Shown here piece by piece: positions 3,688-10,372 of a DNA stretch of 35,052 nt. Each line of letters opens with the position of its first letter. Within the stretch, counting starts at the first letter, position 1. The stretch spans positions 1 through 35,052 of the forward strand of contig CAIJPN010000203.1 in NCBI GenBank assembly GCA_903822545.1. Direction: 5' to 3'. The position numbers were made by a program, and so were the translations under genes. This DNA comes from an uncultured Anaerolineae bacterium. GTDB lineage: Bacteria; Chloroflexota; Anaerolineae; Anaerolineales; Villigracilaceae. Below the pieces are notes generated by a model. That model was given only the letters and a program-made list of their open reading frames with translations. It was not told the DNA's origin and made no database searches.

Positions 3688-4659
3688 TTATGGAAGCAAA
3701 TGTGCCTGGTATTTTTCGGCGAACAGCGCAGGCTGGCCACCGGTATTCCAGAACAGCACCGTCTCATCTTTTTTGAAAAAGCCCTTGCGGATGAGATCGA
3801 TCATCCCGCCCGCGGCGCGTCCCGTATAAACCGGGTCGAGCAGCACACCCTCGAATTTTGCGAACAACTTTACCGCCTCGCGCTCGTTTTCCGTTAAGAC
3901 GCCATATCCGGCCTGACAGTAAGCCTCGCTCGCCAGCACATCCTGCGGCCCAAACTGGATTCTTGCCCCCAGCTTCTCCGATGCCTCTGATGCCAGTTCC
4001 GATACCCGCGCCTTAAGCCACTCTTCCGATTCATCGATGCTAATGCCTAAAACCTGACCCTTGTAACCAAAAACCCGCTGCCCCAATACCAGCCCGGCAT
4101 GTGTCCCGCCGCTGGATGTGCCAAACACCATCCAATCGGCATCCACACCCTGATTCATGAACTCTTCCACCGCAAAGGCATACCCCATCGCCCCGGTCGG
4201 GCTGGAGCCGCCATACGGCACAAAGTAGGGTTTGCGGCCCTGCGCCTTCAACTGCTCAAAAGTTTCCATCTGCACGCGCTCACGGTCAGCGCGCTCGGCC
4301 ACCCACACGATCTGTGCCCCAAAGAGCGTATCCAGCAGCAGGTTAGCCGAAAGCTGCGCAGGCGGCTGGCCGTTCAGCACCAGGGTACAATCCAGCCCGT
4401 TTTTGGCCGCCGCAGCCGCAGTCTGGCGGCAGTGATTGGATTGGGCCGCCCCGGCGGTGATGAGCGTATCTGCACCCTCTTCGATCGCTTCCGCCACCAG
4501 GAATTCCAACTTGCGGGTTTTATTGCCGCCCAGTGCCAGCCCGGTCTGGTCATCGCGCTTAATCAGCAGCCTTGGACCGCCCAGGTGAGCAGAAAGGCGT
4601 GGCAGCGCCTCGATCGGGGTTGGCAGGTGGGCAAAACGAATGCGGGGAACAGCGTTCAT
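3688..4659 (-). CDS. dcyD: D-cysteine desulfhydrase / ACC-deaminase family PLP enzyme
   Basis: PLP-dependent fold type II enzyme. Family members convert D-cysteine to pyruvate, H2S and ammonia, or open 1-aminocyclopropane-1-carboxylate. The N-terminus has the family motif LLIKRDDQTGLALGGNKTRK, in which the Lys of GGNK is expected to bind PLP. Other hallmarks are AAQSNHCRQTAAAAA, a phosphate-binding GTSSGGTHAG, and FWNTGGQPALF near the end. The start chosen is ATG at 4659 (323 residues) because GGAG precedes it; a TTG 12 bp upstream overlaps that site. Whether it is a D-cysteine desulfhydrase, an ACC deaminase or a related desulfhydrase cannot be decided from motifs alone. Confidence 0.88.
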   Translation of the reverse strand: MNAVPRIRFAHLPTPIEALPRLSAHLGGPRLLIKRDDQTGLALGGNKTRKLEFLVAEAIEEGADTLITAGAAQSNHCRQTAAAAAKNGLDCTLVLNGQPPAQLSANLLLDTLFGAQIVWVAERADRERVQMETFEQLKAQGRKPYFVPYGGSSPTGAMGYAFAVEEFMNQGVDADWMVFGTSSGGTHAGLVLGQRVFGYKGQVLGISIDESEEWLKARVSELASEASEKLGARIQFGPQDVLASEAYCQAGYGVLTENEREAVKLFAKFEGVLLDPVYTGRAAGGMIDLIRKGFFKKDETVLFWNTGGQPALFAEKYQAHLLP

Positions 4660-4879
4660 GATTTTCTCCAAAGAATTGGCAAAATATTTCTTTCAGTTTG
4701 CCACGTTTACCCAAATTAATCAACCGGGCAAATTTTTCTTAAAGTTATTGCAACTGCCCAGGTTGGATATTTCCAATCCAGTTTGGCAGGCTGGAAGCTC
4801 CTCCTCAGTGCATAAAAACTATTGGGCTGTCAGTGTTCCGAATTCGACAACCCGGGCTGATCCTGCTTGCTGGATCAAT

Positions 4880-5395: not shown

Positions 5396-6532
5396 TTAAC
5401 CTATACCCAGGATCTTACTCACCACCGAAAGCAGCACCCCGCCTGCGATAACACTGCCCAACTGACCGGCAGTGTTTGCTCCCATGGCGTGCATCAGGAT
5501 AAAGTTATCGGGGTCTTCCTCGTTTGCCGTCTTGGCGGCCAGCCGTCCGGCCATTGGGAAAGCCGAAATGCCCGAAGCGCCGATCAGCGGGTTGATCTTG
5601 CCGCCGCTGACAAACGACATCAGCTTGCCGAACAGCAGCCCGGCCACTGTATCCAGCACAAAAGCCAGCAGGCCTAGCATCATAATCTTGCCAGTGTCCC
5701 AGTTTAAGAAGGATGCCGCGCTCATGGTCGAGCCGATGGCCAGCCCCAGGAACAGCGTCGAGATGTTGATAATCTCATTTTGGGCGGCCTTGCTCAGGCG
5801 GTCTACCACCCCGCTGACTTTGAGCAGGTTGCCCAGCATCAGCATAGAAATCAGCGGCGTTGCCTCAGGCACGAGTAGCCCCACCACCACGATCAGCGCC
5901 ACCGGGAAGAAAATCAGCGCCTTTTGCGAGATCGGGCGCGGCGCGTATTCCATGCGGATCAGCCGCTCTTTTTTTGTGGTCAGCAGCTTCATCAGCGGCG
6001 GCTGGATGATTGGAATCAGGCTCATGTACGAGTAAGCTGCCACCGCAATCGGGGCCAGCAGCTCGGGGGCCAGTTTGGTCGCCACAAAAATGGATGTCGG
6101 GCCGTCAATCGCGCCGATCACGCCAATCGAAGCGGCCTGGTTGAGCGGGAAACCCAGCGCAATCGCCAGCATCAGCGTGCCGAAGATGCCAAACTGCCCG
6201 GCAGCGCCCAACAGCGCCATCTGCGGCTGCGCCAGCAGCGGGCTGAAATCGATCATCGCGCCCACGCCCACAAAAATCAGCAGCGGGAAAAGCTCGGTCT
6301 CGATGCCAGCCTTATACAGCACGCCCATCATGCCCTCAGCGGCAGTCATGCCTGAAAGTGGGATATTCGCCAGCAGGCAGCCGAAGCCAATCGGCAGCAG
6401 CAGCACTGGTTCGATTTCCTTAAAAACTGCCAGGTAAATCAACACCAGCGCCGCGGCAATCATTACGCCATTGCCCAGGGTGAAGTGCGTAAATCCTTTT
6501 AATAGTTCGGGGAGCAGTTCTGCCAGGTTCAT
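5396..6532 (-). CDS. mmdB: Na+-translocating acyl-CoA decarboxylase, beta subunit
   Basis: Integral membrane subunit that couples decarboxylation of carboxybiotin to Na+ export. The protein (378 residues) is highly hydrophobic with many membrane segments. It carries the family motifs: an Asp-containing GVIGAIDGPTSIF (D143), FVGVGAMIDFSPLL, IGSTMSAASFLN near residue 270, and ISAFPMAGRLA followed by GANTAGQLGSVIAGG near the C-terminus. In studied homologues the conserved Asp of the IDGPT motif is needed for Na+ transport. It is the last gene of the operon and overlaps the biotin carrier gene by 4 bp. Beta subunits of oxaloacetate, methylmalonyl-CoA and glutaconyl-CoA decarboxylases are alike; the name follows the mmdA neighbour. 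Confidence 0.92.
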   Translation of the reverse strand: MNLAELLPELLKGFTHFTLGNGVMIAAALVLIYLAVFKEIEPVLLLPIGFGCLLANIPLSGMTAAEGMMGVLYKAGIETELFPLLIFVGVGAMIDFSPLLAQPQMALLGAAGQFGIFGTLMLAIALGFPLNQAASIGVIGAIDGPTSIFVATKLAPELLAPIAVAAYSYMSLIPIIQPPLMKLLTTKKERLIRMEYAPRPISQKALIFFPVALIVVVGLLVPEATPLISMLMLGNLLKVSGVVDRLSKAAQNEIINISTLFLGLAIGSTMSAASFLNWDTGKIMMLGLLAFVLDTVAGLLFGKLMSFVSGGKINPLIGASGISAFPMAGRLAAKTANEEDPDNFILMHAMGANTAGQLGSVIAGGVLLSVVSKILGIG

Positions 6533-6969
6533 GGCACATCCTTGAACGTAATCAGTACCTGTTTGTGTGCCACCGTCTGCCCGGCAGAAACTAGCACCTG
6601 GTCGATCAGGCCGCCGCGCGTGGCGCGAATGCTGTTTTTCATCTTCATCGCTTCAATTACCAGCACCACGTTCCCGGCGTCGATCAGTTCTCCAGGTTTG
6701 ACGAAAACTTCGGTAACGGTGCCGGGCAGCGGGGCGGTCAGGGGTTGGGTGGATGATGCCAGGTTGACGGGGTGTGAGGTGGCCGGGAGTTTTCCTGTTG
6801 TTGGGGCAATTTCCAACCCCGGGCTGACTGTTCCGCCCTGCGGCTGGATACCGCTCATTGGGCTGACTTCGAACGCCTCGCCATCCACCCGCGCGATCAC
6901 CGGGCGCGCGTTGATATCTTCTATTTCCACTTCAAAGATTTTTTCATCGATTTTGACTGTGTATTTCAT
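6529..6969 (-). CDS. mmdC: Biotin carboxyl carrier subunit of the decarboxylase
   Basis: Carries the biotin that shuttles CO2 from the carboxyltransferase to the membrane beta subunit. The last ~75 residues form a biotinyl domain with the biotinylation motif EAMKM, Lys at residue 109, preceded by a Pro/Ser/Thr-rich linker (residues ~35-75). The N-terminus (MKYTVKIDEKIFEVEIEDI) is the small beta domain common to these carriers. The start is ATG at 6969, with AAAGGA upstream; a longer frame reaching 7005 runs into a repeat. A 237-bp repeat-bearing gap separates it from the OadG-like gene, while its 3' end overlaps the beta subunit gene. Confidence 0.92.
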   Translation of the reverse strand: MKYTVKIDEKIFEVEIEDINARPVIARVDGEAFEVSPMSGIQPQGGTVSPGLEIAPTTGKLPATSHPVNLASSTQPLTAPLPGTVTEVFVKPGELIDAGNVVLVIEAMKMKNSIRATRGGLIDQVLVSAGQTVAHKQVLITFKDVP

Positions 6970-6992
6970 ATTCAAATCCTTTTTCGTATGGC

Positions 6993-7049
6993 AAGGGCGA
7001 CCCATCCTGCCATAACAAGTAGCTTTTTCGCGCAGGGCGGGTCGCCCTT
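6993..7049. repeat. Inverted repeat (AAGGGCGACCC type) within the decarboxylase operon
   Basis: Arms 6993-7010 (AAGGGCGACCCATCCTGC) and 7032-7049 match at 16 of 18 positions around a 21-nt spacer. It lies in the gap between the OadG-like gene and the biotin carrier gene. It is a small palindromic repeat unlike the CCCTCACC family. Confidence 0.65.
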
Positions 7050-7533: not shown

Positions 7534-9087
7534 CTATACCGGGATGTTGCCGTGTTTGCGCGGCGGGGCGGGCGCGAATTTGTCACGTAGGGCTGAAAGT
7601 GCGGCAATGATTTTGGGGCGCGTTTCTTTTGGCTCGATGATGTCATCCACGTACCCGCCCGATGCAGCGTAGTAGGGGTTGTTAAATTTGGCGCGGTATT
7701 CTTCGGCCAGCTTTTTGCGCTCGGCCGCAGGGTCGGATGCGGCTTCGATCTGGCGTTTGAACAGGATGTTGGCTGCGCCTTCTGCGCCCAGCACGGCAAT
7801 TTCGGCGCTTGGCCAGGCGTAGGTGACATCGGTGCCCAGGTATTTGCTCGACATAACCACATATGCGCCGCCGTAGGCCTTGCGTGTGATGATGCAGACT
7901 TTGGGCACTGTCGCCTCGGAATAGGCGTAGAGCAGTTTTGCGCCGTGGCGGATGATGCCGCTGTGTTCCTGGGCGATGCCGGGCAAGAAGCCGGGCGAAT
8001 CGACGAAGGTGACAATGGGGATGTTGAAGCAGTCGCACATGCGCACGAAACGGGTCATTTTGTCGCTGGCGTCGATGTCGATCACTCCGGCCATGGCGGC
8101 AGGTTCCTGCCCGACGATGCCCACGCTGTGCCCGCCAATGCGCGCCAGGCCGATAATGGCGTTACGCGCCCAGTTGGGCTGGAGTTCGAGGAAGGTACCC
8201 TGGTCGACAATGCGCTCGATCACCTGGTGCATGATGTAGGGGGATGTCGGGTCGAGCGGGATGATGTGGTTGAGTTCTTCATCCATGCGCGTTGCTGGGT
8301 CGGCAGTTTTTGCGTAAGGTGGGTTTTCCACGTTGTTAGATGGCAGGTATGACAAGAAATAGCGCGCCATCGCAAGGGCTTCTTGTTCGCTGTGCATGGC
8401 CAGGTGGGCCACGCCGCTGACTCCGGTGTGGATGTCGGTGCCGCCCAGTGATTCGGCATCGATCACTTCTCCAGTGACAGCTTTGATGACTTCTGGGCCA
8501 GTCAGGAACATGAAGGATTGCTTTTCAACCATGATGATCAGATCGGTGAGTGCTGGGGAGTAGGCTGCGCCGCCCGCGCATGGGCCGAGCATCACGCTGA
8601 TTTGTGGTACCACGCCCGAGTATTGGGCGTTGCGCCGGAAAATCTCGGCGTAACCACCCAGCGAGCGCACGCCTTCCTGAATGCGCGCCCCGCCCGAGTC
8701 GATCAGGCTGATGAAGGGTGCGCCGTTGCGCACTGCCAGATCCATCACGCGGCAGATTTTATGGCTTTGCATCTCTGAGAGTGTGCCGCCATAGATGGTG
8801 AAATCCTGTGAGTAAACGTACACCGTGCGGCCATCGATCTGCCCGTAGCCGGTGATAACGCCATCGCCCAGGTAGGTTTCGGTGAGCAGGTGCATTTCAT
8901 CGCCCTGGTGGGTGATGAAGGGTTCTAGTTCGTTAAATGTGCCTGGGTCGAGCAACTTCTCTACGCGCTCGCGCGAGGTCATTTTTCCTTTGGCTTTTTG
9001 CCGGGCAGTCCGCTCTGCGCCACCGCCTTCGATTGCTCTGGCGCGCATTTTGCGTAGTTCTAAAATTCGGGGGTCTTCTTCTATCAT
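7534..9087 (-). CDS. mmdA: Methylmalonyl-CoA decarboxylase alpha subunit (carboxyltransferase)
   Basis: Acyl-CoA carboxyltransferase of the crotonase-like carboxylase superfamily, 517 residues. In the decarboxylase complex it moves the carboxyl group of (S)-methylmalonyl-CoA to biotin, giving propionyl-CoA. Visible motifs are the N-terminal KGKMTSRERVEKLLDPGTF, GPCAGGAAYSPALTD and GGTDIHTGVSGVAH in the N-terminal half, and FVDSPGFLPGIAQE plus KAYGGAYVVMSSK in the C-terminal half. The start is ATG at 9087 with AAAGGAT upstream. The gene order mmdA, OadG-like, biotin carrier, beta matches Na+-pumping methylmalonyl-CoA decarboxylases of Veillonella and Propionigenium. Glutaconyl-CoA is an alternative substrate. 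Biotin carboxylase is absent here, which favours decarboxylase over ATP-dependent carboxylase. Confidence 0.92.
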   Translation of the reverse strand: MIEEDPRILELRKMRARAIEGGGAERTARQKAKGKMTSRERVEKLLDPGTFNELEPFITHQGDEMHLLTETYLGDGVITGYGQIDGRTVYVYSQDFTIYGGTLSEMQSHKICRVMDLAVRNGAPFISLIDSGGARIQEGVRSLGGYAEIFRRNAQYSGVVPQISVMLGPCAGGAAYSPALTDLIIMVEKQSFMFLTGPEVIKAVTGEVIDAESLGGTDIHTGVSGVAHLAMHSEQEALAMARYFLSYLPSNNVENPPYAKTADPATRMDEELNHIIPLDPTSPYIMHQVIERIVDQGTFLELQPNWARNAIIGLARIGGHSVGIVGQEPAAMAGVIDIDASDKMTRFVRMCDCFNIPIVTFVDSPGFLPGIAQEHSGIIRHGAKLLYAYSEATVPKVCIITRKAYGGAYVVMSSKYLGTDVTYAWPSAEIAVLGAEGAANILFKRQIEAASDPAAERKKLAEEYRAKFNNPYYAASGGYVDDIIEPKETRPKIIAALSALRDKFAPAPPRKHGNIPV

Positions 9088-9120: not shown

Positions 9121-9138
9121 TTGTGAATTATTTCACAA
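9121..9138. promoter_or_regulatory. Candidate Rex (NADH-sensing repressor) operator
   Basis: TTGTGAATTATTTCACAA is a perfect match to the published Rex consensus TTGTGAAnnnnTTCACAA, and the symmetry extends to 10 bp on each side. It lies just downstream of the mmdA -10 box and upstream of its start, overlapping the likely transcription start. That position suits repression. Assignment to Rex is by motif only. Confidence 0.7.
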
Positions 9139-9143
9139 AAAAT

Positions 9144-9149
9144 AGTATA
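9144..9149 (-). promoter_or_regulatory. -10 box of the mmdA operon
   Basis: TATACT on the minus strand, 57 bp before the mmdA ATG and immediately before the Rex-like palindrome. No convincing -35 was found. Confidence 0.45.
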
Positions 9150-9250
9150 GCACGCCTGGCAGAATAAAATAGTGATACGCGTCATGACTGGGGGCGTGTC
9201 ATTTGCCATGTTTTCAGACGCACGCCCCAAAGTTTCTGGAAATCTGGTCA

Positions 9251-9304: not shown

Positions 9305-10372
9305 TTGGCGTTCAATCCAATCAACTGGTTGCTTGGACTGTTTTCCCTCGATATCGGCATCGATCTTGGCACTGCCAACACGCTGGTGTACGTTAAGGGA
9401 CGCGGTATTGTTATTAATGAGCCTTCGTGGGTCACGATTGAGAAACGCACCCGTGAACCGTTGGCGGTTGGCCTGCGTGCGAAAGAAATGATGGGGCGCA
9501 CGGCTGGGAATATCCTGGCGATCCGCCCGGTACGCGATGGTGTGATCTCAGAGTTTGATGTTACCCAGGTGATGCTGACGTACTTCATCGGGCAGGTACA
9601 TGAGCAGAGTGTGGTTCCGCTGCCGCGCCCGCGTGTGGTCATCGGCATCCCGGCTGGGGTGACGGAAGTGGAGAAGCGCGCGGTTTACGACGCGGCTATG
9701 TCTGCCGGGGCGCGCGAAGCTTTCCTGGTGGAAGAACCTGTGGCGGCGGCGCTGGGGGCTGGTCTCCCGGTACACGAAGTCAAAGGGTCGATGGTGGTTG
9801 ATATTGGCGGCGGTACGACCGAGGTGGCGGTCATGTCGATGGGTGGGGTGGTCGTCTCCCGCTCGTTGCGGGTGGCAGGTGATGAGCTGGATCAGGATAT
9901 CGTGCAGTACATCCGCAACAAATATAATTTGTTGATTGGCGAAGGTGTGGCAGAGCAGACCAAGATGAAAATTGGTTCGGCCTACCCGCTGCCGCAGGAA
10001 AAAACGATGGATGTGCGCGGACGCAACCTGATCACCGGGCTGCCTGAGTCGATTGAAGTCTCGTCAATTGAAATGCGCGATGCGCTCTCTGGCTCGGTAC
10101 AGGTGATTGTGGATACCATCCGCGATGCGCTGGATGAAGTGCCCCCGGAAGTGATCGCTGACCTGATGGATACTGGCATCTGCCTGGCGGGCGGCGGCGC
10201 GTTGATCCAGGGCCTGGCCGACCGGCTGGCTGATGAGTTGAACCTGCGCGTCTGGCAGGCCGAAGACCCGCTGACCTGTGTGGTGCGCGGCACCGGTGCC
10301 ATCCTGGATAATTTTGAGCATATGCGCCATTACCTGGTCAGCCTGGAACGTGGCAGCACCCGCCATAAATAA
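9305..10372 (+). CDS. mreB: Rod shape-determining protein MreB (actin homologue)
   Basis: Bacterial actin that forms membrane-bound filaments guiding lateral wall synthesis. Nucleotide-binding motifs are visible: phosphate-1 loop LDIGIDLGTANT near residues 15-25, VVDIGGGTTEVAV (phosphate-2) in the middle, and CLAGGGALIQGLADRL near the end. The start is TTG at 9305, preceded by AGGAG with 7-nt spacing. It gives 355 residues, close to the family length; the longer frame adds 34 unrelated residues and includes the promoter. The N-terminal FNPINWLLGLF may act as a membrane-binding helix. First gene of an elongasome-Min block. Confidence 0.96.
   Translation: MAFNPINWLLGLFSLDIGIDLGTANTLVYVKGRGIVINEPSWVTIEKRTREPLAVGLRAKEMMGRTAGNILAIRPVRDGVISEFDVTQVMLTYFIGQVHEQSVVPLPRPRVVIGIPAGVTEVEKRAVYDAAMSAGAREAFLVEEPVAAALGAGLPVHEVKGSMVVDIGGGTTEVAVMSMGGVVVSRSLRVAGDELDQDIVQYIRNKYNLLIGEGVAEQTKMKIGSAYPLPQEKTMDVRGRNLITGLPESIEVSSIEMRDALSGSVQVIVDTIRDALDEVPPEVIADLMDTGICLAGGGALIQGLADRLADELNLRVWQAEDPLTCVVRGTGAILDNFEHMRHYLVSLERGSTRHK

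Follow-up and report, generated by a model that had tools for sequence, protein, structure and literature searches.

The mmdADCB genes of Veillonella and Propionigenium encode a Na+-translocating methylmalonyl-CoA decarboxylase. Sludge, sediment and groundwater commonly harbour Anaerolineales, which are mostly uncultured. RBG-9 is a Chloroflexi genome that we take to belong to the class Anaerolineae. Propionate fermentation with a Na+-coupled methylmalonyl-CoA decarboxylase has been proposed for it (PMC3971608). In Staphylococcus aureus the operator of the redox-sensing repressor Rex is given as TTGTGAAW4TTCACAA (PMC2883068). Rex sites have been predicted at Rnf and fermentation genes of Caproicibacterium lactatifermentans (PMC9600882), and in Caldicellulosiruptor bescii a gene also annotated as an oxaloacetate decarboxylase was assayed by gel shift as a Rex target, its control by Rex being judged doubtful by the authors in view of a high Kd (PMC6391272). 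Among the titles and abstract openings surveyed, none ties Rex to methylmalonyl-CoA decarboxylase, the Rex-regulon comparison of Ravcheev et al. 2012 lying outside the scope of this survey.

The locus described here lies in a window of 35,052 nucleotides, by which the whole stretch of DNA analysed is meant, and its features are collected in the table. At 9121-9138 the window carries TTGTGAATTATTTCACAA, an 18-bp palindrome of the form TTGTGAANNNNTTCACAA that defines a Rex-regulon operator, with no mismatch to TTGTGAAW4TTCACAA; the exact consensus match claimed by an earlier sequence-only reading of this DNA was therefore confirmed, position included. The palindrome is the sole match in the window, even when up to three mismatches are allowed, and in 100 shuffled versions of the window such matches averaged 0.15, with at least one in 14 of the 100. 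A perfect Rex operator occurs once in the 5.53 Mb genome, at this place, against about 0.009 expected, whereas five places are found at up to one mismatch (0.41 expected) and 33 at up to two (9.0 expected, and 7 for the motif read backwards); the expected counts derive from base composition under a single-base model, with the G+C of the window applied to the whole genome.

Table. Features of the mmdA locus, in positions of the window
Feature	Position	Strand	Basis or remark
Beta subunit, Na+-translocating carboxybiotin decarboxylase, 378 aa	5396..6532	-	PF03977, 8.6e-148
Biotin carrier subunit, 158 aa, EAMKM biotinylation motif	6529..7005	-	PF00364, 2.4e-15
Gamma (membrane anchor) subunit, 105 aa	7207..7524	-	PF04277, 29.7 bits, cut-off 27
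mmdA, carboxyltransferase (alpha) subunit, 517 aa	7534..9087	-	Carboxyl_trans, 9.9e-188
Rex operator (predicted), perfect palindrome TTGTGAATTATTTCACAA	9121..9138	.	Consensus match and retention upstream of mmdA in many relatives
Extended -10 TGCTATACT of the mmdA promoter (predicted)	9144..9152	-	+1 predicted inside the operator
Conserved ATCACT box, -35 region	9171..9176	-	Upstream regions of relatives; placed in the window by eye
mreB, divergent neighbour, outside the regulated unit	9305..10372	+	Family match; upstream in 1 of 73 loci

The operator ends 33 nt before the start codon of mmdA, an ATG at 9087 on the minus strand. On the same strand the hexamer TATACT (9144-9149), preceded by TGC, is separated from the operator by 5 nt (9139-9143), and with the -10 element at this distance the +1 of mmdA should fall within the operator. 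A protein bound there would then occlude RNA polymerase, so that the placement, as far as it can be read from the letters, is that of a promoter-blocking Rex site, and the overlap of the operator with the predicted transcription start, likewise claimed by the sequence-only reading, is upheld as a prediction. A consensus promoter scan of the window did not report the mmdA promoter, the -35 of which is poor. In 24 of the 45 relatives that carry the site, the best TATACT-like hexamer has its end 5 nt ahead of the operator (with 6/6 identity in 22 and 5/6 in 2); in the remainder the distance is 1-11 nt.

Two further elements were observed in these upstream regions. In 31 of the 45 site-bearing relatives a box containing TCACT, often as ATCACTGG, has its end 21-22 nt upstream of the -10, and a TCACT/TCATT box is also present in 17 of 46 operator-less loci; it may represent a -35 of unusual form or be bound by a second regulator. 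Between this box and the -10, several relatives (L080, L086, L081, L076, L093 and others) share a short palindrome-like motif, TTGTCTGACA(A), which is absent from the window.

A rex gene in the genome, and additional sites at fermentation and respiration genes, were proposed as checks on the sequence-only reading, and both have been found. The genome encodes one Rex (204 aa; PF06971, 72 bits; NCBIfam Rex, 269.9 bits, cut-off 126), which aligns over its full length with the Thermotoga maritima protein, including QIRKDLS and the GxGxxG stretch, and which has both the DNA-binding and the NAD(H)-binding domains. The sites with at most one mismatch lie at redox or fermentation genes in five cases out of five, the window included. 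The other four are found at NuoE-like/FDH-like genes (with NuoF-like and molybdopterin-type genes further on, and one plus-strand ORF called between), at a [NiFe]-hydrogenase operon, at an Hdr-like operon and at focA, and the two-mismatch sites include ones at nrfHA, at a NuoEF-like fusion accompanied by molybdopterin-type genes and at GAPDH-PGK. The surroundings were read for 20 of the 33 sites at up to two mismatches, namely the window and 19 others, with Pfam applied to a neighbour for 15 of the 19 and L024, L029, L033 and L036 left unannotated; several of these 20 look like chance matches. Since about nine of the 33 sites are expected by chance, a site at this level is insufficient to call a target. 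Accordingly, no such claim is made for the sites near glycosyltransferase-GAF (L022), histidine kinase (L026), UDP-glucose dehydrogenase (L030), ROK (L034), YceD-like (L035) and Na+/Pi cotransporter (L025) genes, nor for those of L023 and L028, whose neighbours gave no Pfam match at 1e-8.

Two further arrangements in the same genome may be mentioned. Adjacent Rex-like sites of 11/14 and 13/14 precede the NuoE-like gene of the FDH-like cluster (L018:5581-5618, C17), and the rex ATG taken here is preceded, at a distance of 49 nt, by an 11/14 site (L017:5280-5297, C135), a position that hints at autoregulation.

Conservation was assessed on 110 loci, consisting of the best 80 of 151 and the best 30 matches from a set of 81 genomes, 76 of which matched MmdA, many only through a paralogue of about 56% identity; start codons were extrapolated where the match began after residue 1. 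Removal of 16 rows with a duplicate upstream stretch, of L085 (39 nt upstream) and of L066 (truncated gene) left 92 distinct loci. Sites scoring 11/14 or better, no more than 100 nt upstream of mmdA, were found in 46 of the 92, the window included, and not in the other 46; 30 of the 92 have a site of at least 12/14 there. Such stronger sites are almost confined to this position, with 30 of the 31 detected in 833 kb of loci lying upstream of mmdA and one elsewhere, while sites of at least 11/14 occur at 23 places elsewhere in the same 833 kb. Among 150 permuted half-sites, the mean at this lower threshold was 0.8 loci and the highest counts were 20 (ATGTGAT, CRP-like) and 19 (TAGTGAT), both of these being close in letters to the real half-site; at 12/14 the permuted half-sites reached at most 2 loci, against 30 for the Rex half. 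In the 45 sites of the relatives the left half is best kept and the right half is often imperfect (T at position 12 in 20, A at position 17 in 20 and A at position 18 in 26), frequently reading ATCACC, with C at position 17 in 23.

Conservation upstream of mmdA in relatives, proposed as a check on the sequence-only reading, gave a mixed result: the palindrome is present in 36 of the 50 loci with at least 82% MmdA identity, the window included, and absent from other close relatives that have the operon. By identity class, the site is found in 18 of 25 loci at 85% or above, 18 of 25 at 82-85%, 4 of 10 at 79-82%, 5 of 14 at 77.5-79% and 1 of 18 below. A quick MmdA tree places it in 45 of the 64 rows of the clade of the window (support 93) and in 1 of the 28 rows outside, requiring 14 changes, against 31 with shuffled labels, or at least 8 if only starred branches are trusted; as this tree has a midpoint root, gains and losses are not told apart. 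At least eight relatives with 83-87% identity (L090, L068, L076, L077, L093, L097, L105 and L046) were seen by eye to keep the promoter, with the start codon shortly after the -10 and no operator, and rex is present in G017, G030 and G043, the operator-less promoter-keepers among the G genomes. The site is therefore conserved upstream of orthologues without being universal, and its absence from half of the loci makes the switch a lineage trait rather than a fixed property of the operon, seemingly lost several times. Over the 81 genomes, 127 sites with no more than one mismatch were counted (21 for the motif read backwards), with at least one in 47 genomes and none in 34. No rex profile match was obtained in G013, G031 (65% complete), G039 (60%) and G058 (93%) of the 81; G013, which has a perfect operator, was rejected as a rex-less genome, the last 45 residues of rex being found there and running to the end of the stretch, so that the gene looks cut by the contig end.

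As regards the regulated unit, the alpha, gamma, biotin carrier and beta subunits are all present and the operon contains no biotin carboxylase gene, which is the composition of a Na+-pumping acyl-CoA decarboxylase and agrees with the Na+-pumping decarboxylase operon announced by the earlier reading. The order of carrier and then beta is kept downstream in 63 of the 64 loci with at least 3 kb of downstream sequence. The beta subunit exceeds the TIGR01109 cut-off (446.1 bits) and aligns with the OadB chain 6iva (1.2e-102); by eye, D203, Y229, N373, G377, S382 and R389 of OadB, residues of the ion path that are essential for ion coupling, are identical in 6/6 cases. The two small subunits resemble their models less closely, with 31.7 bits for gamma against TIGR01195 (cut-off 36.05) and a weak match of the carrier to the MmdC model (50.8 bits, cut-off 200). 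Downstream, at 3688-4671, a PLP enzyme is encoded that is near the D-cysteate sulfo-lyase and D-cysteine desulfhydrase families and does not reach the cut-off of any of the 14 NCBIfam families listed.

The substrate is a more delicate matter. Against TIGR01117 (mmdA) the alpha subunit reaches 744.5 bits, below the NCBIfam cut-off of 998.8, and methylmalonyl-CoA decarboxylase is for that reason the likeliest name and not a proven one; the subunit is called MmdA-like here, in the sense that it would work like the methylmalonyl-CoA decarboxylase, membership of the family not being claimed. The genome holds two genes of the methylmalonyl-CoA mutase type, one for an epimerase and one for a flavoprotein of the SDH/FRD type, a set that fits a succinate-propionate route, and methylmalonyl-CoA is in our estimate quite probably the substrate of the pump. 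Compatible with the same regulation, and differing in substrate, is the possibility that Rex represses a pump acting on malonyl-CoA or another acyl-CoA, with no propionate fermentation. The low mmdA score would be accounted for in this way, and so would a Val that alpha carries at a candidate acyl-CoA specificity position; the aligned PccB chain also has Val there. We take this position to set the preference for propionyl- or acetyl-CoA, and the aligned chain to be an engineered variant, wild-type PccB presumably having the specificity Asp. The same possibility gains from the result that no Rex-like site of at least 11/14 was found in the stretches around either mutase. None was found either around the acyl-CoA carboxylase paralogue, a second carboxyltransferase (56% identical) encoded elsewhere in the genome beside a biotin carboxylase and a carrier, so that, judged by sites of this strength, Rex would control the pump step and leave those genes alone. 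The existence of this separate paralogue, free of such a site, speaks against another substrate, as do the complete set of four pump subunits without biotin carboxylase, the mutase, epimerase and SDH/FRD-type genes, and the methylmalonyl-CoA reading published for Chloroflexi RBG-9 (PMC3971608). A different substrate is on balance unlikely, though it has to be reckoned with. The sequence-only chain from methylmalonyl-CoA decarboxylation to propionate formation and Na+ export is thus in keeping with the anatomy of the operon and the accompanying genes and not with the alpha score or the Val, and would hold as a plausible reading.

A Crp/Fnr-family protein could bind the palindrome instead of Rex, given that the core motif of this family, TGTGA-N6-TCACA, overlaps the Rex motif and is common to both, that the genome has genes of the family (12 matches, of which 9 exceed the cut-off), and that the CRP-like ATGTGAT was the best of the permuted controls (20 of the 92 loci at 11/14 or better). 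The two types are distinguished by the T before and the A after TGTGA, the Crp-type consensus half-site being ATGTGAT, and the half-site at this locus is not of that type and reads TTGTGAA. In the sites of the relatives, positions 1, 2 and 7 are T, T and A in 43, 42 and 34 of 45, counts that lean towards the Rex type since the sites had been selected by their resemblance to that motif. At 12/14 or better the Rex half is found in 30 loci and the CRP-like half in 1; furthermore, a site at the likely +1 would occupy the place of a repressor, and the other four one-mismatch sites lie at typical Rex targets. From the flanking bases and the 12/14 count, a Crp/Fnr operator is considered very unlikely. 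A chance match, or an operator of the divergent mreB promoter, can be rejected as extremely unlikely: the palindrome does lie in the mmdA-mreB intergenic region, but about 4e-7 perfect sites are expected in 250 bp, the window shuffles and genome counts also argue against chance, the likely -10 of mreB is by eye some 115 bp downstream of the palindrome, the site is kept at mmdA in relatives without an mreB neighbour, and mreB is the upstream neighbour only in the window itself among the 73 loci that have 1.5 kb or more of upstream sequence, so that the site travels with mmdA.

With Rex as the preferred regulator, the site, its promoter geometry, the rex gene, the operon, the conservation and the other sites lead to the following proposal, in which Rex binding, the NADH response, the substrate, the direction of flux and the use of the Na+ gradient are all presumed. 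The palindrome, directly downstream of the mmdA -10, would be the operator for the single Rex of the genome, which in its NAD+-bound form would block RNA polymerase at the mmdA promoter; upon a rise in NADH/NAD+ Rex would leave, and the mmdA-gamma-biotin carrier-beta operon would be transcribed. The product would be a membrane Na+-pumping biotin decarboxylase, with methylmalonyl-CoA as its most likely substrate, closing a route from succinate to propionate. Rex would in this manner couple an excess of reductant to a decarboxylation that conserves energy, along with genes for formate, hydrogen and other electron sinks. That a Rex operator controls this pump operon, which is the core of the proposal, is given a probability of roughly 85%. 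A site on the promoter of the pump, kept in many relatives, suggests that the pump is switched on when reducing power builds up.

How the gradient would be spent is suggested by two observations. A search of the genome for the family covering NqrB (NQR2), RnfD and RnfE gave no match, and the c subunit of the ATP synthase (GIAFAEAVAIY) is without the set of Gln and Ser/Thr that serve as ligands in Na+-type c rings, so that the ATP synthase looks H+-type. Together these would make the use of the Na+ gradient indirect, more likely by antiport or symport. In L151 (C164 of the same genome), a Na+/H+ exchanger gene (PF00999) adjoins a methylmalonyl-CoA mutase gene and is divergent from it. The link between redox state and sodium gradient drawn by the sequence-only reading accordingly stands in part: a predicted Na+ pump lies under a Rex site, while the missing NQR2/RnfD/RnfE match and the H+-like c subunit leave its downstream side less direct. 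A wider reading, which we hold tentatively and at somewhat less than even odds, is that Rex acts, in much of the Anaerolineales, as the direct gate of a primary Na+ pump driven by decarboxylation, NADH/NAD+ setting the amount of sodium-motive force made; with an apparently H+-coupled ATP synthase, the pump would feed Na+/H+ antiport or Na+ symport rather than drive ATP synthesis directly, and the gate would apparently descend within one large clade, with several losses in which the promoter stayed. The conserved switch would provide a testable rule for when Anaerolineales make propionate and a sodium gradient.

Among known systems, mmdADCB is matched by this operon in its four subunit types, namely carboxyltransferase, small membrane anchor, biotin carrier and membrane beta pump, and differs in that the alpha subunit here is under the curated mmdA cut-off, the carrier matches MmdC weakly and a predicted Rex site lies on the promoter. 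The operator is identical to that of S. aureus-type Rex regulons (PMC2883068), the protein has the same DNA-binding and Rossmann regions, and electron-sink and fermentation genes are targets in both, whereas at this locus an operon for a Na+-pumping decarboxylase would be the target, in an Anaerolineales-like genome. The C. bescii gene was named a pyruvate carboxyltransferase and is not a membrane pump operon such as the present one (PMC6391272). For RBG-9 the same enzyme and pathway were proposed in a Chloroflexi genome, in an account that, in its available part, is silent on regulation of the decarboxylase, whereas a Rex site is seen here (PMC3971608). C. lactatifermentans shares with this locus predicted Rex sites at a membrane energy-conserving complex, but its operator is of the clostridial type TTGTTAA-N4-TTAACAA and its target is Rnf rather than a decarboxylase pump, the word 'decarboxylase' having 0 occurrences in that text (PMC9600882). 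The mmdA operon, with its site kept in a large clade, is thus a probable new target of Rex, a regulator already known; the physiology implied is plausible and testable, and the finding extends known biology sensibly rather than describing a new kind of system: to an Rnf pump already predicted elsewhere (PMC9600882), the targets of Rex would add an ion pump driven by decarboxylation.
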